A DNA stretch of 20,569 nucleotides from a virus: positions 1 through 20,569 of IMG/VR virus record IMGVR_UViG_3300020214_000154. One strand, 5' to 3'. The translations under genes and the position numbers were made by a program. This document shows, one piece after another, positions 748-16,666 of this stretch (position 1 is its first letter; every line of letters starts with the position of its first letter). The notes under the pieces were generated by a model, which saw only the letters and a list, made by a program, of their open reading frames with translations, was not told the DNA's origin and searched no databases.

Positions 748-755
748 TATTTATG
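748..755 (-). promoter_or_regulatory. Candidate late promoter CATAAATA
   Basis: CATAAATA on the minus strand differs at one base from the T4 late box TATAAATA. It overlaps the TAA of the collagen/collar gene and lies upstream of the 184-aa gene (ATG at 719), the normal distance for a late promoter. AT-rich 8-mers arise by chance in this sequence, so only the position supports it. Confidence 0.4.
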
Positions 756-3369
756 TTTTTATGCAAGCTAACATCGCATAGTTTCTTGGACGAGTTTCAT
801 TGCCAAAGTTACCACCATTAGTAGTGTTTGGACTTCCACCCTCAATATTAGACAAAGTTCCTGTAAGATTAGCAGTTCTAGGAATAGCATTACTGCCAGC
901 AGTACTATAAGTTGGAATATTATGTGTGTGAGTTTGGTACTGATGATCTTGGAAACTGGCAAATGCTCGACCACTATCCACTGACGCAGTGTTTGCCCAA
1001 CCTCTAATAAAGTTTCCTCTCAAATCTGGAACATTGAAGCTAGTAGAACCATTTCCTGATCCCCAAGTGGTTCCTATCTCATTAAAGAGCACACTGTAAA
1101 GTCCCCTACTAACAGCCGCACCATCACATTCTAGATATCCAGATGGAGCAGTGTTTTTTGCAAACCAAACAACAACTCCAGCAGCAACTGTTCCAGATCC
1201 AGCTTCAGTACCTTGAATACCTTGCAGACCTTGGATACCTTGCAGACCTTGACCACCAACAAATCCTGCAATACCTTGAATACCTTGCTGACCTTGTATT
1301 CCTTGTGGTCCAATATTACCTTGAATACCTTGATTCCCAGTTCCATTAATACCTTGAATACCTTGCTCACCTTGGATACCTTGAATACCCTGAATACCTT
1401 GAGAACCTAGATCACCTTTAATCCCCTGAATACCTTGGCGACCTTGAATGCCCTGAGTTCCTTGAGAACCTACACCATTATCTCCTTGAATGCCCTGTCG
1501 ACCTTGGAGACCTTGGAAACCTTGGAAACCTTGAGCTCCTTGCGGTCCATTATTACCTTGAATGCCCTGTCGACCTTGGAGACCCTGAACCCCTTGAATT
1601 CCTTGAAATCCCTGAACTCCTTGAAGACCTTGTTCACCCTGAACTCCTTGAAGACCTTGATTACCCTGTGGTCCAAAGTCTCCTTGAATACCCTGCAGAC
1701 CCTGACCACCAGCTCCACCAGTTGCACCTCCTGTTCCCTGAACACCTTGAATACCCTGCCTCCCTTGATTTCCCTGTGCTCCAGTCTCACCTTGAAGACC
1801 TTGACGACCTTGAATTCCTTGCTCACCCTGAATACCTTGAATACCCTGAAGACCTTGACGACCTTGAATTCCCTGAGATCCTTGAATACCTTGATTACCT
1901 TGAAGACCCTGAATACCTTGACTACCAGCTCCACCTATCAATCCACTAATACCCTGAATGCCTTGAGCTCCTTGTGGTCCATCATTACCCTGAATACCCT
2001 GTCGGCCTTGAATACCTTGATTACCTTGATTGCCTTGATTACCCTGAACACCTTGCTGACCTTGAATACCTTGAGCACCCTGAGATCCTGGGCCACCACC
2101 AATACCTTGAATACCTTGGCGTCCTTGGAAACCTTGAAAACCCTGTGGTCCTGATGTTCCTTGAACACCTTGACGACCCTGGGAACCCTGAACACCCTGA
2201 TTTCCCTGGATACCCTGAACTCCTTGGAATGATGCATCATTGATACTAATTTTTTTTACATCATCCGCAGAATAATCATAGACTAATAGTAAATCTTGAA
2301 GTCCATCAGCACCAGTAATTAATGATTGTTCAGTGATCGCTTTTTTACTTACTTTTCCATCAAATAAAGTCGCTGTAATAATACCAGAAGAAAATGTATT
2401 TCCATAGATAGAAAAGTCTGCACTAACTCCCAAAGTTGAAGTTCCGATGCCAACTTTCCTGAAGGTAGAAATCCCAAGAAATGTTGAAATACCTGTTACT
2501 AATAAACTATTAATTGTAACTGGTCCAGCAAAACCAGAACTGCCCACAACATCAAAAATGAATCTTGGAGTTGTTGAACCTATACCAATTCTTTGGTTCG
2601 TATAATCATACCAAAAATTACTTGCACCATCAACAAGTCCTGCTGTGCCATGAAATTGAATTTGACCAATCGTACCACCAGCACCAGATATTGTCGCAGA
2701 TTGGGATTGCCACTCCATCCCCCCAGAAGAAGTTTTAATCAAAACGTCGCCAGGATCTCCAGGATAATTGGTAGAGTCATAAATTGTTCCAGCAATTCTT
2801 ACATCCCCTTGAACATGTAACTCTTGTGATGGATCAATAGTATTAATCCCAACATAACCATCTGTTGTTGTTTTAAAAACTGTACCACCAAAACCAACAT
2901 GAAGGTAATGTGCAACAGACATAATTCCTGTTACATTATCAAATAATAAGTACGGTGAAGCACTAAAAGTTCCATTATTATTAAAAATTATCTCATTATC
3001 ATTTCCTGGAGGGCTAATCGTAATTGTTGAGATAGTTCCAAAATTATTTGCTGTTACGGTGATAATATTTCCAACAAAATTTAACTTATTGATACTATTT
3101 CCTGTACCAACAATAGATCCTTCCTCAAAAACAGAAATACCTGTAATAATACCAGCGGGAGGAACTTGCCAATATCTATCATATTGACCACCATTTTCAA
3201 AAGTTACAAGATTATAATAAAAGTCTTTTACTGGTAGTGATCTTTCGCCTGGATATCCAAGATTGGGTTCTGTTTCTTGCGGACTAAGAAACACATGTCT
3301 ATCTGTGCTTAATCCAGACAGAGGAGTTAATTTTTGTTTTCCACTTAGATATCTTTGCTTATTCGCCAT
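751..3369 (-). CDS. Collagen-like fibre with C-terminal tail collar domain
   Basis: An 872-aa trimeric-fibre-type protein. Residues 1-100 are an attachment region. Residues 100-380 hold beta-rich repeats with VGIGT..P...LDV.G-type motifs near 171, 260 and 306. Residues about 383-720 form a long Gly-X-Y stalk, mostly Gly-X-Gln. The last 140 residues are a phage tail collar domain as in T4 gp12, with PSGYLECDGAAVSRGLYSVL, then FNVPDLRGNFIRGW, then HTHNI (an HxH like the zinc site of T4 gp12), ending ETRPRNYAMLACIKT. It probably serves as a receptor-binding fibre or short tail fibre on the virion. Its ATG follows the 220-aa structural gene by 2 nt, so translation is likely coupled. No S74 chaperone domain is present. 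Confidence 0.85.
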   Translation of the reverse strand: MANKQRYLSGKQKLTPLSGLSTDRHVFLSPQETEPNLGYPGERSLPVKDFYYNLVTFENGGQYDRYWQVPPAGIITGISVFEEGSIVGTGNSINKLNFVGNIITVTANNFGTISTITISPPGNDNEIIFNNNGTFSASPYLLFDNVTGIMSVAHYLHVGFGGTVFKTTTDGYVGINTIDPSQELHVQGDVRIAGTIYDSTNYPGDPGDVLIKTSSGGMEWQSQSATISGAGGTIGQIQFHGTAGLVDGASNFWYDYTNQRIGIGSTTPRFIFDVVGSSGFAGPVTINSLLVTGISTFLGISTFRKVGIGTSTLGVSADFSIYGNTFSSGIITATLFDGKVSKKAITEQSLITGADGLQDLLLVYDYSADDVKKISINDASFQGVQGIQGNQGVQGSQGRQGVQGTSGPQGFQGFQGRQGIQGIGGGPGSQGAQGIQGQQGVQGNQGNQGNQGIQGRQGIQGNDGPQGAQGIQGISGLIGGAGSQGIQGLQGNQGIQGSQGIQGRQGLQGIQGIQGEQGIQGRQGLQGETGAQGNQGRQGIQGVQGTGGATGGAGGQGLQGIQGDFGPQGNQGLQGVQGEQGLQGVQGFQGIQGVQGLQGRQGIQGNNGPQGAQGFQGFQGLQGRQGIQGDNGVGSQGTQGIQGRQGIQGIKGDLGSQGIQGIQGIQGEQGIQGINGTGNQGIQGNIGPQGIQGQQGIQGIAGFVGGQGLQGIQGLQGIQGTEAGSGTVAAGVVVWFAKNTAPSGYLECDGAAVSRGLYSVLFNEIGTTWGSGNGSTSFNVPDLRGNFIRGWANTASVDSGRAFASFQDHQYQTHTHNIPTYSTAGSNAIPRTANLTGTLSNIEGGSPNTTNGGNFGNETRPRNYAMLACIKT
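1205..2226 (-). repeat. Gly-X-Gln collagen-like repeat tract
   Basis: About 1 kb of imperfect 9-bp periodic DNA (CCTTGAATA-like on the plus strand) encodes about 112 Gly-X-Y triplets in the fibre gene. Gln fills the third position in most triplets, and X is often Ile, Val, Leu, Asn, Arg or Ser. The tract is interrupted in several places by Gly-rich breaks such as GGGPGSQG, GLIGGAGSQG and GTGGATGGAGGQG. Such DNA is prone to length change by slippage or recombination. Confidence 0.9.
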
Positions 3370-8870: not shown

Positions 8871-10850
8871 TTATTTTGTGATACAATCTATTTGCTGTGT
8901 GACTTCATCTTGATACTCAGGAGTTTCTAAAATTGGTCTTATGATCGCTCCTGTTCCAGTATCACTAATAACTCTTATAAATGGTAAATCGGTAGATATA
9001 TTAATATTTATTGGATTAGCTTTAACAATTCCTCCCTTATCAATTACAAGATCATATTCTGTGCCAAAATTATCTTTTGCCTTATCACCAACTTTATATC
9101 CAGTTCCAGGATTATCAACAATTGTTCTAGTAACTGCAAAATTTTGAACCTCGCCAACAGGATAGTTTTCACCCTCAGATACAATATAAATTGCACTAAT
9201 TTGACCAGCATCGTCAATTAATGCCCTAGCAACTGCACCATATCCTTGATTACAATTATCTTGGATGGTAACAAACGGAGGAAATTCATATCCCGATCCA
9301 GGATTGGTAACTTGAACCCCGATAACACTTCCTACTGCCTCTGCACCAAGCCCAACAATTGTTCCCATGAGTGCTTTTGCAGCTCCACCAGTTCCTCCGC
9401 CACCAAAAATATTAATAGTAGGAGCACCACAAACTAATGGTGGTCCAGTATAACATCCACCTAAAGCACTTAGAGGATTACTTACAGCATTAATAACTTG
9501 ACCCGTAGTCGACTTAAAGATATCATATGCATCTGTAAAACTACCTTTTACATCTTGTACTGTTGAAGCAGCGGTGTTCATTATATTAGAAATTTGCCCA
9601 AATGGATCTGCTCCAGGCATCATTGCACCACCACCAATTGTGTATGTCGTTGCAAGACTTGTGCATTTATCTTTGTTTTGATTACATGAAAAAATAGATC
9701 CTATTCCTTTAATTGCATCAATTGAACTTCGAATTAAATTAGCAATATTAAGACCAGCACTTAGAATTTTAGTAACTCCACCAAGAGCTGAACTTAATGC
9801 ATCTGCAATACCATCAACAATATTATTTAAAAGTGCTCCAGCGAATTGGTTAGCAGCACAAGAAACAAAACTTTTGACATTTTCTACCACAGAATTAATC
9901 ATTTTTTCAATAACACCTTTCAAACCATCAATTACTTTTCCAACAACACATCCCATTGCTTTTTGAAAAGCTTTAACTGGTTTTACCATTGCGGTTTGAG
10001 CTGCAACCCCACCCAAGTGAGCCGCTACAGGATTACCACTTATTGCTAGGATTTTAGCAAATACATCCTTATATAAGAAATCCAATCCTTTCTTCATTAA
10101 TTTAACCATCTCATCACCTAACCATTTGACTGCATTGCCAATCATTTCATTGCAGTCTTTTAGGATGTTATTAATTGCTTCTTTAATTTTTGCTTTTTTC
10201 TTTTGTATATTATTTTGTAACTTTCTAATTTTTTTAAGTAGATTTTCAATTCTGGCAGTTATTTTATCCACCGTAGTATTCTTACAGGGATTTGCCATAA
10301 CTACCTTGTCGCCAATGACAGAACTTACCGAAACATCTCCACTTGAACTAGCGGTGTCATCGGTGCGGGCAACAGGAGAAACTTGAGATTTGGGATTACC
10401 AGATTCATTTGATTCATTCGGAACAAGAGTTCCATCTGGTTTAGGGATGCTATCTGTGTATCCTGTAAATGGTTGAAATGGACCCTTAAAATCTTTACTT
10501 ACTACATCAGATGTTTTACCAAAGGTTGCTAATATTACAGGAATTTGTGCGTTATCTCCATCCATAAAGAACCCAAAAACAACATCGCTAGGTTGAAGTG
10601 CAACATCCGTAGATTGATTCGCTGCACCACTTCCAGATGTGGTTGGTATTAAAACTTGAGCCCATGGAAGATCTTCATTTTTTAATTCAGATTCATAAAA
10701 TGGGTGATATCCCATAATACGGACACGATATCTATTACCCCAACCTTCTGCACCTTGCCTATGGTAAGGGGCTGGAGGAATTTGACCGATCCACCAACGA
10801 AATCCGTCTCTACCTAAAAAATTACTTTTAAGTAATGATTCATCTATCAT
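8871..10850 (-). CDS. gp5: Baseplate hub gp5-like OB-fold protein without lysozyme
   Basis: 659 aa. Residues 1-115 match the OB-fold start of T4 gp5: WWIGQIPP, then NRYRVRIMGYHPFYE, LPWAQVLIPTTSGSG, and VVFGFFMDGDNAQIPVILAT. From there it diverges. Residues 190-260 are a Lys-rich coiled coil (IENLLKKIRKLQNNIQKKK), and 270-470 are Ala/Gly-rich helices. Residues 509-568 form a GSGY beta domain that also occurs in the 1407-aa protein, with a second NPGTGY near 584. No lysozyme catalytic motif and no needle repeats are present. Its ATG overlaps the stop of the gp27-like gene as ATGA, so the two hub partners are translationally coupled. It probably sits under the gp27-like ring in the hub. Confidence 0.85.
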   Translation of the reverse strand: MIDESLLKSNFLGRDGFRWWIGQIPPAPYHRQGAEGWGNRYRVRIMGYHPFYESELKNEDLPWAQVLIPTTSGSGAANQSTDVALQPSDVVFGFFMDGDNAQIPVILATFGKTSDVVSKDFKGPFQPFTGYTDSIPKPDGTLVPNESNESGNPKSQVSPVARTDDTASSSGDVSVSSVIGDKVVMANPCKNTTVDKITARIENLLKKIRKLQNNIQKKKAKIKEAINNILKDCNEMIGNAVKWLGDEMVKLMKKGLDFLYKDVFAKILAISGNPVAAHLGGVAAQTAMVKPVKAFQKAMGCVVGKVIDGLKGVIEKMINSVVENVKSFVSCAANQFAGALLNNIVDGIADALSSALGGVTKILSAGLNIANLIRSSIDAIKGIGSIFSCNQNKDKCTSLATTYTIGGGAMMPGADPFGQISNIMNTAASTVQDVKGSFTDAYDIFKSTTGQVINAVSNPLSALGGCYTGPPLVCGAPTINIFGGGGTGGAAKALMGTIVGLGAEAVGSVIGVQVTNPGSGYEFPPFVTIQDNCNQGYGAVARALIDDAGQISAIYIVSEGENYPVGEVQNFAVTRTIVDNPGTGYKVGDKAKDNFGTEYDLVIDKGGIVKANPININISTDLPFIRVISDTGTGAIIRPILETPEYQDEVTQQIDCITK

Positions 10851-12217
10851 GGTTTATTAGCCTCTGGATTTACCCCAAATGTATCTCTGACTAGTTTCAT
10901 AGAAGTATAAGATGATTCTGTATCAAAGTGGTGACACAACTCTTTAATCATATATAGACCGCTTGTTTCTTCATCCAATTCCTTCCCATCTTTAGATGAT
11001 ATTTTTGGAAAATTACATTTGATAACATCACCAGCATTTAAATTTGTATTTAAAGGAACAATCATGCTTAGAGTTTGAGTGAAAAGTATATTGTATCTCA
11101 TAATGGATTGAGATTGATATTTTTCTGGGCTCGCATTAATTTCTTTTGATGGTTCTTTATTAAGAGTACCAATGTCAAGGCACATTGTGAAGATTCTAGT
11201 AGGAGTTTCACCAAGATCCTTTGTATTTCCAGATGATATTTTAGGAAGTTTTAATTTATCACCAAGATTACTTGTTTTATTAACATAATCACTTAATTTG
11301 AATAATCCTTTTTCAGGGTTTGTGAATTCAAAAGTTAATGGATTAAAAAATATTCTGTAACTTGAGTATGTACCCAATTTAAGTTTCTCAATTAAATTTT
11401 GATTTTTTTGTGTTGTATAATTCAAAATTTTAAAATCATTTTTTACAGAATCACCTTTTTCATCATAAGTTTCAACACTTTCACTATAGAGATAAACTGC
11501 TTTTGGTTTTTGTTTAATTAAATTATCAATTGATCTAAAATTAAATCCATTTTTGGTTTGATAAAATACAAATCCAGCAGTAGCATCGCCTGAAGTAGAA
11601 GGAACACCTTTTGATGCCAACCAAATCAAAACTGTAAATGGTTTACGCATATTACCAATGAATCCATACTTATTTGTCGTTCTTTCTATAGAATCATCAG
11701 TAAATTTATCAGTTTTAAGAGTATTTTTAAGTATTTGTTTTACTGAAGTATCAATACTATTGTCTGGAGCAAACTTTTTTCCTACTCTTACTGTTTCATT
11801 AGTAATTGCTTCTCTTGAAGTAAGGTGTAAGGTGAAAGATTCTCTTTGAGATTCTGCAATCACATCTGTGATGCTCGATACATACAAATAATCTTTTGAT
11901 GATTTAGAAAAATCAATAGGAATATTGGAATCAGTATTTGGAGCGATTTTTAATCTGAATCTCTCTCCACCTCTCAGAGGAAGTCCATTATAAACGGATT
12001 GTTTATTCTTATCTGTGCTTCCATCAGCATTAGCTGGGGCTATGCTATCTCCAGTATTAATCATTCTCAACGTTGCTGTAATAGTTGGAGAAAAAATGTC
12101 TTCATAATAATCAAGAGACACTATCGAAATTCCAATATCAACAGTTCTTTTTTGATCGTTTGATTCTAAAATTGCCTCTTCAATTTTACACGCTGATTGT
12201 GCTGCTACTTTTGCCAT
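10847..12217 (-). CDS. gp27: Baseplate hub gp27-like protein
   Basis: 456 aa, compared with 391 in T4 gp27. Features typical of gp27/gpD/VgrG hub proteins are visible: an N-terminal beta domain with YYEDIFSPTITATLRMI and PLRGGERFRLKI; a central part with SREAITNETVRVGKKF and the helix KPFTVLIWLASKGVP; and a C-terminal half with LNAGDVIKCNFPKIS followed by SGLYMIKELCHHFDTESSYT. Such proteins form the trimeric ring that joins the tail tube to the spike. The start ATG shares its A with the TAA of the 656-aa gene (TAATG), and the stop overlaps the gp5 start, so the 656-aa protein, gp27 and gp5 are made together. Assignment rests on fold-type motifs and position rather than strong identity. Confidence 0.7.
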   Translation of the reverse strand: MAKVAAQSACKIEEAILESNDQKRTVDIGISIVSLDYYEDIFSPTITATLRMINTGDSIAPANADGSTDKNKQSVYNGLPLRGGERFRLKIAPNTDSNIPIDFSKSSKDYLYVSSITDVIAESQRESFTLHLTSREAITNETVRVGKKFAPDNSIDTSVKQILKNTLKTDKFTDDSIERTTNKYGFIGNMRKPFTVLIWLASKGVPSTSGDATAGFVFYQTKNGFNFRSIDNLIKQKPKAVYLYSESVETYDEKGDSVKNDFKILNYTTQKNQNLIEKLKLGTYSSYRIFFNPLTFEFTNPEKGLFKLSDYVNKTSNLGDKLKLPKISSGNTKDLGETPTRIFTMCLDIGTLNKEPSKEINASPEKYQSQSIMRYNILFTQTLSMIVPLNTNLNAGDVIKCNFPKISSKDGKELDEETSGLYMIKELCHHFDTESSYTSMKLVRDTFGVNPEANKP

Positions 12218-14187
12218 TATAGATACGCTAAATCAGTTAGAAACTTTTGTTTGATGAAATTATTTAACATGTTAAATTCAGAAGTTTGTGGGGTTTGATC
12301 TATTTGACTCATACCAGAAGAATTAAAAGAAGCCGCTGTGGCATTTAACAGTTGAGATAATGCCTGCATATCTATAGCTGGTCGAGTATCAACAACGCTC
12401 ACAACATCACCAGATGTATTTGGCGTGATAGTTGATATGTCCATGGATTGAGATCCAGTAAATGAATCTGACTTGGAACCCATAGCTCCATGTCCAACAA
12501 ATACATTAGTTCCAGCGACTGTTCCAGATACACCAAATCCATCATCTCTAAATTTGACATCAGCAACAGAAAGAGGCATTCTTACAGTTTCAGCAAACGC
12601 CATATCAATTCCACCATCACTACCATTTCTAGTATGCACCTTTTGTTCATTTAGTAATGCGTTTTGTAAATCATTGTCACTGATACCAGGGGAGATATTT
12701 CGATTACTTCTTGTTAGTGAGAATGATTTTTTCTGACTTAAAAAGTGCTTTGCAACAGTAAAAGCAACTGCCCTAACATCGCTATAGTATGTTCCAGGGA
12801 ATTTATCTCCTTGTTGTGCCAACTTAGAATCTGCTGTTCCTGGTCCAAAGTGGAAGTGTGGTCCAGTGCTCTTTCCTGTAGATCCTTGAATGAAATTTCC
12901 TTTGGAAGTTGAAGAAACGTTTAGATTTGTAGGTGATGATTGTTGTGAAGAAGAGACTTGTGCTTGTGAGGATGATGAACTTGCTTTCTGATATTCTTTC
13001 CAAATTTTATTACCATGCATTGCACCTGTTGTTCCAAGAGCATCTGGACTAGTTAAATCCTCAAAACTTCCAGATATGTGTGCGGCACCAAATCTTTTAA
13101 CTAAAAATTCAACAGAAGCATCGCGATATTTTCTTTTAATTTGTGTTAAAGTATTGGTTGCGTGTTCTGAAAACAGAGAATCCTGATCTTTTGCGGGAAA
13201 ATATTTTAATAACTTTCTTGCTGCATTTCTATCAGATCCATTAGCTCTTTTTAAAAGATCCTCTGCTATTGCCTCCTCACCCATTGCTTTTGCATTTTTG
13301 CGAATAATTGCTGTAGTATCAGATCTATAAGTCATAAATTGGTATCTTCCTAAACCATGACCTCCACCACGAACAGTAACGCCAACAGAATCATAATTGC
13401 CTTCAGCTGCTCCTGTTGCAGTTGCTAATGCTTTTAAATTTACACCGTAAGCAGTTCCGTTTAATCCCGTCCCGCTAGAAGTAGAAGGTTGACTTTCTGG
13501 GAACTGGGATGGTCCTTCTGAACCCAATGGCGGTGCATCTTGACCACTTGCAATCCCCTCACTAAGTGATGTTGTCATTAATTTCAAAGCATCATCTATT
13601 GACGATGACATATCAGAAAGATTTTGATTTAGTTGTCCAAATGTATCTTTTACTCTATTAGAAGTATCAAAAAAATCAAACGACGCTATGTTTTGAGCAA
13701 CTGAACTAAGAAGATTGAACATGTTACCAACAAATCCAATTGCACCTTTGACAAAGGTAGCAACAATTGAAACTCCCTTATAAATTCTAGCAACAAATTC
13801 TTTTGCCATCCCAATCCAAGTTGGTAAGTTTTTAAGTAACCAACCAACTCCTAGATATGCAATAGCAGATAAAATTCTACCCAAAAATCCTTTACCAGCG
13901 TTAAGAATAGACTTTTCAGTAGCAAATCCTGGAGAAAGAACAGATGCCAAATTAGATGCTTCGAGTTGATCTTCTGCTTCTTTTTTTATTATAGCGTCTC
14001 TTCTTTTTTGAAAAAGACTTTTACTAGTAAATACTGCTTGAGTTTTTATTTTAGTTCTATTTAAAATAATTTTTTTAGTATCACTAATTACTGTCCTCGT
14101 ATTGGACAGACTTCTTTTCATATTTAAAACTGTAGAAGAAATACTATTAATTGATTTCGTGCTAGGAGATAAACTTAAGAGTGCCAT
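12217..14187 (-). CDS. Hub/tape-measure-like protein with lysozyme-like and M23-like domains
   Basis: 656 aa. Residues 30-80 are a basic helical region (SLFQKRRDAIIKKEAEDQLE). Residues 105-165 are strongly hydrophobic (ILSAIAYLGVGWLLKNLP). A lysozyme or transglycosylase-like domain spans about 250-400, with candidate catalytic Glu at about 262 (TGAAEGNYDS) and GLGRYQFM at about 283. A Ser/Gln linker follows. Near 435-450 is QGSTGKSTGPHFHFG, the C-terminal signature of M23 metallopeptidases. Later come SDGGIDMAFAETV (about 526) and TNVFVGHGAMG (about 566), which resemble the N-terminal M23 strands, so the order looks permuted. It probably cuts peptidoglycan during DNA injection. Hydrophobic stretches plus wall-lytic domains are known in tape-measure proteins, but a separate hub enzyme is equally possible. 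Confidence 0.7.
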   Translation of the reverse strand: MALLSLSPSTKSINSISSTVLNMKRSLSNTRTVISDTKKIILNRTKIKTQAVFTSKSLFQKRRDAIIKKEAEDQLEASNLASVLSPGFATEKSILNAGKGFLGRILSAIAYLGVGWLLKNLPTWIGMAKEFVARIYKGVSIVATFVKGAIGFVGNMFNLLSSVAQNIASFDFFDTSNRVKDTFGQLNQNLSDMSSSIDDALKLMTTSLSEGIASGQDAPPLGSEGPSQFPESQPSTSSGTGLNGTAYGVNLKALATATGAAEGNYDSVGVTVRGGGHGLGRYQFMTYRSDTTAIIRKNAKAMGEEAIAEDLLKRANGSDRNAARKLLKYFPAKDQDSLFSEHATNTLTQIKRKYRDASVEFLVKRFGAAHISGSFEDLTSPDALGTTGAMHGNKIWKEYQKASSSSSQAQVSSSQQSSPTNLNVSSTSKGNFIQGSTGKSTGPHFHFGPGTADSKLAQQGDKFPGTYYSDVRAVAFTVAKHFLSQKKSFSLTRSNRNISPGISDNDLQNALLNEQKVHTRNGSDGGIDMAFAETVRMPLSVADVKFRDDGFGVSGTVAGTNVFVGHGAMGSKSDSFTGSQSMDISTITPNTSGDVVSVVDTRPAIDMQALSQLLNATAASFNSSGMSQIDQTPQTSEFNMLNNFIKQKFLTDLAYL

Positions 14188-15949: not shown

Positions 15950-16666
15950 CTACGCGAAAAAACTTGTTAGACCCTCTAGAACAACTTCACTTTCAACTTC
16001 AGTTTTTGGATTCTTAACTTTAATCGTATGAGAAAGTTTTGGCATCGTTTCAAAGAACTTTTCAATCTCTTTAAATTGTTTTGAACTTAATTGATCAACA
16101 AAATCAAATAATTCTTTTTTTGTACAATCAGATGCTGACCAAGTTTCGTCTTCAGAATAAACTTGCTCAATACATCCACTAATCAGATCAAAAGTATCAT
16201 CAACTGTCACATCATTAAGATTAAAATTATTTTTAATAAACTGACTCAATGAAGGATATCTCATTCTCATTGTCAGATTAGAATCTAACCTAATATCTCT
16301 AGTATGACTTGAATTAGTTTGAACCTGAATCTCATCTAAATTAATGGATACTGGAACTTGAGTAATCTCATCATCAGGGCAAGTGACTAAAACATCTACT
16401 GTTTCACCTACAGACTTTCCTCTGATGTTAAGGAATAGATACTCAATATCAAAAGTAGCTAAGTTTTCTACTTTGACTCCCTTTGTTAGAATACAATTTG
16501 AAATAACTGTTTTGATTGCGTTTGTAATTTGCTTATCATCTTGACTTTCCATTGCGATGATAAGAATTTTTTCTTCTTTAACTAGAAATGGTCTGTACTT
16601 TATTGACTTTCCTGTCGATGGTAGTTGCAACTCATAGGTTGGTGTTGCAATTGTTGGTAAAGGCAT
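15950..16666 (-). CDS. gp26: Baseplate hub assembly protein gp26-like
   Basis: 238 aa, compared with 208 in T4 gp26. The N-terminus (YELQLPSTGKSIKYRPFLVKEEKILIIA, given here as two blocks around KYRPF) and the pattern FDIEYLFLNIRGKSVGE, then MRMRYPSLSQFI, are those of the T4-type baseplate hub protein family. gp26 is needed to assemble the T4 hub. The gene follows gp54 and precedes the tape-measure-like genes, a tail-chaperone position. An exact TATAAATA lies just upstream and AGG is 6 nt before the ATG, so it probably starts a late transcript. Its last codons contain a slippery heptamer leading into the next ORF. Confidence 0.85.
   Translation of the reverse strand: MPLPTIATPTYELQLPSTGKSIKYRPFLVKEEKILIIAMESQDDKQITNAIKTVISNCILTKGVKVENLATFDIEYLFLNIRGKSVGETVDVLVTCPDDEITQVPVSINLDEIQVQTNSSHTRDIRLDSNLTMRMRYPSLSQFIKNNFNLNDVTVDDTFDLISGCIEQVYSEDETWSASDCTKKELFDFVDQLSSKQFKEIEKFFETMPKLSHTIKVKNPKTEVESEVVLEGLTSFFA
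15956..15962 (-). promoter_or_regulatory. -1 ribosomal frameshift heptamer TTTTTTC
   Basis: In the gp26 reading frame the sequence is AGT TTT TTC GCG TAG, which gives X XXY YYZ as T TTT TTC, two codons before the gp26 stop. A -1 slip reads CGC GTA GGG ATG and enters the 58-aa ORF at its ATG without a stop between. A 6-bp stem (GGCTCA 15945-15940 with TGAGTC 15930-15925, one G-T pair, 9-nt loop) begins 10 nt downstream and could stimulate it weakly. Confidence 0.6.

Follow-up and report, generated by a model that had tools for sequence, protein, structure and literature searches.

A probable circularly permuted M23 endopeptidase domain encoded next to the baseplate hub genes of T4-like cyanophages

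Introduction

Peptidases of the M23 family, such as LytM and lysostaphin (PF01551), present their active site in a linear order of H(x)nD zinc motif, catalytic histidine and HxH motif. The zinc ligands of LytM are H210, D214 and H293, and its catalytic histidines are H260 and H291 (PMC4594094). A displaced first histidine is normal in M23, as illustrated by LasA, with H(x)12D, and by phi29 gp13, a known tail-tip M23 example with H(x)7D (PMC9662197); in Blp, H22 and D36 serve as ligands (PMC9783410). LasA and Blp (both M23A) as well as phi29 gp13 are all of canonical order. In phi29 gp13, a lysozyme domain is coupled to the M23 domain at the tail tip.

Circular permutation of a cell-wall-enzyme fold occurs in nature among NlpC/P60 families (YaeF/G6R, LRAT-like; PMC6403190), which, unlike the domain described here, are cysteine enzymes of another fold and hence provide a precedent only. 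For M23, we found no published description of a permuted form in the open-access literature, to which the search was confined, and the main text of a review of the family (PMC9662197) contains no word beginning with "permut". Here we analyse a viral protein in which the M23 motifs occur in reversed order. We put at roughly 0.74 the probability that its residues 425 to 575 (approximate limits) form one zinc-peptidase domain that derives from M23 (lysostaphin/LytM) by circular permutation and cuts peptidoglycan at the baseplate.

Results

Gene, domains and neighbours

The window, that is, the whole stretch of DNA analysed, is the entire record IMGVR_UViG_3300020214_000154 (20,569 bases). An uninterrupted open reading frame on its minus strand encodes a protein of 656 aa with an N-terminal coiled/hydrophobic scaffold, a glycosidase-like domain, the putative permuted M23-like domain and a C-terminal tail. 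The features are as follows.

12217-14187, minus strand: whole gene, for a 656-aa protein of the tail/baseplate operon (open reading frame, translation, domain comparisons)
13498-14187, minus strand: residues 1-230, conserved scaffold (82% identical in locus L002; weak phrog_37890 match)
12979-13458, minus strand: residues 244-403, lysozyme-like domain (AAEG...GRYQF), almost unchanged in locus L010
12463-12915, minus strand: residues 425-575, putative permuted M23-like domain (profile, alignment, AlphaFold model)
12844-12900, minus strand: residues 430-448 (GNFIQGSTGKSTGPHFHFG), counterpart of the M23 C-terminal strand with HxH (profile match and conservation)
12643-12843, minus strand: residues 449-515, putative linker from old C terminus to old N terminus (AlphaFold)
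12463-12645, minus strand: residues 515-575, equivalent to the N-terminal part of M23, with motif 1, GYG strand and catalytic-His strand (profile alignment)
12634-12636, minus strand: H518, proposed first zinc ligand (LytM H210), invariant
12604-12606, minus strand: D528, proposed zinc ligand (LytM D214), invariant
12490-12492, minus strand: H566, proposed catalytic histidine (LytM H260), invariant
12616-12618, minus strand: D524, variable position, non-ligand (40-row alignment)
10847-12217, minus strand: next gene, phrog_350 tail protein in gp27-like position (PHROG match)
8871-10850, minus strand: gp5-like baseplate hub and tail lysozyme, phrog_1922 (PHROG match)
15950-16666, minus strand: gp26-like baseplate hub protein, phrog_150 (PHROG match)

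The gp27/gp5 hub genes follow directly downstream of this gene, and the order gp26-like, phrog_350, gp5-like is that of T4-like cyanophages, e.g., P-SSM2; phage-collection matches to the 656-aa protein come from Synechococcus and Prochlorococcus phages and one marine virus. The name "hub protein", used in the earlier note, is a positional label only, justified by the adjoining gp27-like and gp5-like genes. The lysozyme-like domain has no Pfam or PDB match, and its putative function is read from position and motif only; it is near-identical in L010 and L013 and also occurs in the upstream gene of S-8S55. Elsewhere in the window, an 872-aa protein (751-3369, minus strand) matches many collagen-like phage tail fibre PHROG families.

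Order of the motifs and distribution of the domain

The motifs were indeed found between positions 12490 and 12900, where the earlier note had placed them, and its observation that an M23 C-terminal signature comes before N-terminal-type elements held, as residues 430-448, which include GSTGKSTGPHFHFG (residues 435-448), precede residues 515-567 in one open reading frame, with the two segments 70 to 120 residues apart (DGGID from residue 524, position 12618; GHG from residue 565, position 12495). A profile was built from three relatives and then from 19, and a second scan brought the collection to 60 viral loci, which hold 38 distinct aligned domains; addition of locus L055 and of the S-T4 protein gave a conservation alignment of 40 rows (19.7 effective). 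In every one of these approximately 40 sequences, the order is HxH, helical linker, H(x)nD, G-x-G strand and catalytic-type histidine; the canonical M23 linear order was absent, since HxH comes first in every member. Because this order is common to some 40 distinct sequences, whose pairwise identities fall as low as 23% (median 35%), it reflects neither chance nor an assembly error.

PHROG 11440, which carries no function label or M23 link, contains the domain; 18 of its 19 tested members match (best E 2.8e-51), and the window's sequence matches at E 1.7e-8. With the domain queries used, S-CAM3 and S-T4 were the only named isolates found to carry it. In both, it lies beside hub genes and is unrecognised in the annotation, as the S-CAM3 gene (L018:1823-4807, S250808_009) is annotated as "hypothetical protein" and the S-T4 gene (L253:1944-4109) as "putative muramidase". 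Among the fetched loci, each had one copy, with no tandem, intermediate or extra-half forms. Bacterial copies were found neither with an FIQG pattern in 85k genomes nor in 194 genomes of the phylum of genome G007, both scans being weak as they had no positive control.

Conserved residues and the M23 active site

The polar residues that are invariant across the 40 rows are H444, H446, H518, H566, D528, Q434 and Q515; histidine is invariant only at the four positions named and aspartate only at D528. Rotated profile alignments map D528, H446 and H444 to LytM, with H444 corresponding to H291 and H446 to the zinc ligand H293, and H566 was mapped through an alignment with PDB M23 peptidases; H518 was assigned as the first ligand because it is the sole invariant histidine upstream of D528. 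The four histidines and the aspartate correspond to the M23 zinc ligands and catalytic histidines. With regard to individual M23 features, the H(x)nD zinc motif is present and invariant in the 40 rows, HxH is present in a G-rich strand, and H566, on the strand that follows GYGN, aligns to YAH in rotated order.

The earlier note had selected D524, which lies four residues before D528 like the histidine of HxxxD, as an aspartate that replaces the first ligand of HxGxD, and had considered that the domain may be inactive. Neither proposal is supported. We rejected D524 as a replacement ligand as its column contains mostly Gln or Ser (21 Q, 9 S, 3 A, 2 P, one each of D, W and T, and two gaps in 40 rows), with Asp in the window alone, and the likely ligand is instead the invariant H518, ten residues before D528 (H518-x9-D528), supplied through a longer H(x)nD loop (n = 5 to 12 across the family). 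Canonical-order phage M23 domains from the same gene slot likewise show long H(x)nD spacings.

Profile and structure comparisons with M23

For profile comparisons, the family was cut into half 1, the counterpart of the M23 N part, and half 2, the HxH piece, and the main reference profile was built from 47 diverse M23 sequences of canonical order. Half 2 aligned with the M23 C part at an hhalign E of 1.9e-8. Half 1 scored 17.8 against the M23 N part, a score that none of 300 column shuffles attained, nor any of 177 windows drawn from phage tail proteins encoded nearby (maximum 14.4). When the family profile was compared in both orders, as the earlier note had proposed, the alignment of the rotated profile to M23 crossed the junction and covered 80 columns (score 40.4, prob 91, E 1.1e-6), while in natural order the HxH piece alone aligned (18 columns, score 36.7); in global alignment, the rotated profile exceeded 298 of 300 shuffles. 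With a narrower M23 profile of 80 sequences, the half-1 score was borderline (reached by 10/300 shuffles), and in local mode the rotated score was no better than with a shuffled half 1. One of our alignments, the A3 seed alignment, holds an author-composed generic M23 consensus and was used for searching and two side comparisons only; the main half-1 and rotation tests (47-sequence profile, 177 windows) were free of it.

Searched against all of PDB, the rotated-family HMM ranked the M23 peptidases 3slu and 6muk second and third, with alignments that span the GYG strand, the catalytic histidine and HxH; at E values of about 0.3, these matches are suggestive rather than proof. The natural-order HMM retrieved zero M23 peptidases from PDB. 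Among single sequences compared with an M23 HMM, half 1 contributed more than its shuffled versions in 11 of the 38 members, the clearest case being that of locus L025, which scored 25.0 bits when rotated (best of 200 shuffles, 18.9); in the other 27, including the window's sequence, half 1 alone showed no clear gain over shuffles. None of the sequences tested had a Pfam M23 match, whether in natural or in rotated order.

In the AlphaFold model (173 aa), both segments belong to one compact domain (mean pLDDT 81.5, pTM 0.79). Most blocks of the core have a pLDDT near or above 90, strands fall where M23 strands are expected, and the linker (449-515) is predicted as helix-strands-helix, with helices at 465-484 and 504-520. 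No M23 structure was listed when the full model was compared with PDB by Foldseek and VIA-align; this silence says little about a permuted fold, since both methods compare in chain order. Against BFVD, the full model likewise yielded no M23 match, and its sole match at E below 0.001 was the S-T4 homologue. Half 1 folded alone gave a poor model (pLDDT 67.6), with one LytM row at E 9.7.

The gene slot

We fetched 78 partly redundant loci with the domain. The domain gene lies directly upstream of the gp27-like gene in 60 of these; in 17, the gp27-like gene was undetected, these being cut contigs or loci of the S-CAM3 type with an early-ending flank. In S-CAM3 itself, one gene intervenes between the two.

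The contents of this slot vary in the manner of a cassette. The L002 protein matches that of the window over its N-terminal 233 residues (82%) and in its C-terminal tail, but another glycosidase precedes its permuted domain, while in L010 the window's lysozyme-like domain, almost unchanged, is followed by a canonical M23 domain (Pfam E 1.2e-17). Canonical-order M23 domains occupy the same slot in L010, L016 and L019 by Pfam and in L020 by annotation, and S-SRM01 likewise has a canonical M23. The permuted domain in most cases has a glycan-cutting neighbour, and the domains that adjoin it include SLT_3, Phage_lysozyme2 and Hydrolase_2. By eye, and with no Pfam hit, an SGNH-type-looking stretch lies upstream of the permuted domain in L041:703-3789 and downstream of it in L025:2128-4197. 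The S-CAM7 slot (L022:3977-5875) appears, also by eye, to have an NlpC/P60- or CHAP-type end (NGCVFAVNQAY...WVHIGIV).

Discussion

The best reading of these data is that the domain is a circularly permuted M23 endopeptidase that is used in infection and is probably active. The earlier note's proposal of a circular permutation is supported by profile alignment, synteny and the invariance of five M23 active-site residues; its Asp ligand and the inactivity that it considered found no support. The domain resembles M23 in these five residues, the HxH signature, the GYG strand, the catalytic-His strand and the rotated profile match, and differs in its reversed halves, in a two-helix linker some 70 residues long and in scoring below Pfam detection; given its linear order and Pfam score, we do not file it as a standard M23 member. 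Its H518-x9-D528 spacing falls in line with the long H(x)nD of M23A enzymes and phi29 gp13 (n = 9, compared with 12 in LasA and 7 in gp13). As judged from sequence, it most likely works as M23 enzymes do, in a permuted variant.

The new chain would begin within the loop that joins the catalytic-His strand to the HxH strand, pass through the HxH strand and then connect, by way of the two-helix linker, the former C terminus with the former N terminus, where the H(x)nD, GYG and catalytic-His strands would complete the sheet. H446, H518 and D528 would bind the zinc ion, and H444 and H566 would activate water. At the baseplate, the enzyme may cleave the peptide cross-links or stems of peptidoglycan while the genome is injected, alongside the putative glycan-cutting domain of the same protein. 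A glycan cutter and a peptide cutter beside hub genes are what a tail-tip wall-opening protein needs, and the gene position suggests that the protein is part of the virion.

An unlikely alternative is that the domain has only the HxH strand in common with M23 and represents either a new fold or a separate lineage of HxH-first zinc peptidases within the wider LAS type (lysostaphin, D-Ala-D-Ala peptidase, hedgehog). In that case, the helix-strand-helix ahead of H518 would have belonged to the fold from the outset rather than being a linker acquired after permutation. This would fit with the lack of M23 structures among the matches of the full-domain model, with the weakness of half 1 in single sequences and with a second, sequence-unrelated HxH-first family that occupies the same slot in other loci and also occurs in S-CBP3. 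It is opposed by the alignment of the half-1 profile to the M23 N part, by the match of the HxH strand signature itself to M23 and by the absence of an M15 profile match; nor do the two HxH-first families genuinely match each other (score 19, 19 columns). Identity as an M15 D-Ala-D-Ala peptidase (VanY, PF02557) was itself rejected, as the S-x-H-x-x-G-x-A-x-D and E-x-W-H motifs are both missing and hhalign scores were 7.6 (rotated) and 10.8 (natural order).

Most of the recognisable similarity resides in the HxH piece, as would be seen if this piece alone came from M23 and had been fused to an unrelated domain with no rebuilt active site. We regard such a fusion as very improbable: H518, D528 and H566 of the second piece are invariant down to 23% identity, no fetched locus has the pieces apart or in duplicate, and AlphaFold models them as one compact domain. 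Loss of catalysis in a permuted M23 domain that now serves as a binding or structural module would parallel the non-catalytic, canonical LytM factors EnvC and NlpD (PMC9662197) but has hardly any likelihood here, with all five catalytic residues invariant, whereas some of them are lost from degenerate LytM factors.

If permutation of M23 is the right explanation, this would be, within the literature covered, the first case of a naturally permuted M23/lysostaphin fold, and it would offer a ready way to test which loops of M23 accept new termini. It would also put a name to a probable wall-cutting enzyme of T4-like cyanophages, encoded by hub-operon genes now annotated as hypothetical. Annotation by sequence order (Pfam) and sequential fold searches can miss permuted enzymes.

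The second HxH-first domain is found in L014:2968-4731, L183-L189 and L024:3971-5368 (S-SKS1), in the same gene slot, and in L182 (S-CBP3), and combines NYHxH, a helix, a strand and S-x-H-x6-D, an M15-like motif; the L014 copy has zero Pfam, PHROG or PDB matches. From these motifs, it is possibly a permuted M15-like enzyme. That the two families are unrelated HxH-first zinc peptidases, in which case the LAS fold would have been permuted at least twice for the same baseplate slot or both families would go back to an HxH-first LAS branch that has escaped recognition, is a tentative idea, to which we give about one chance in four.
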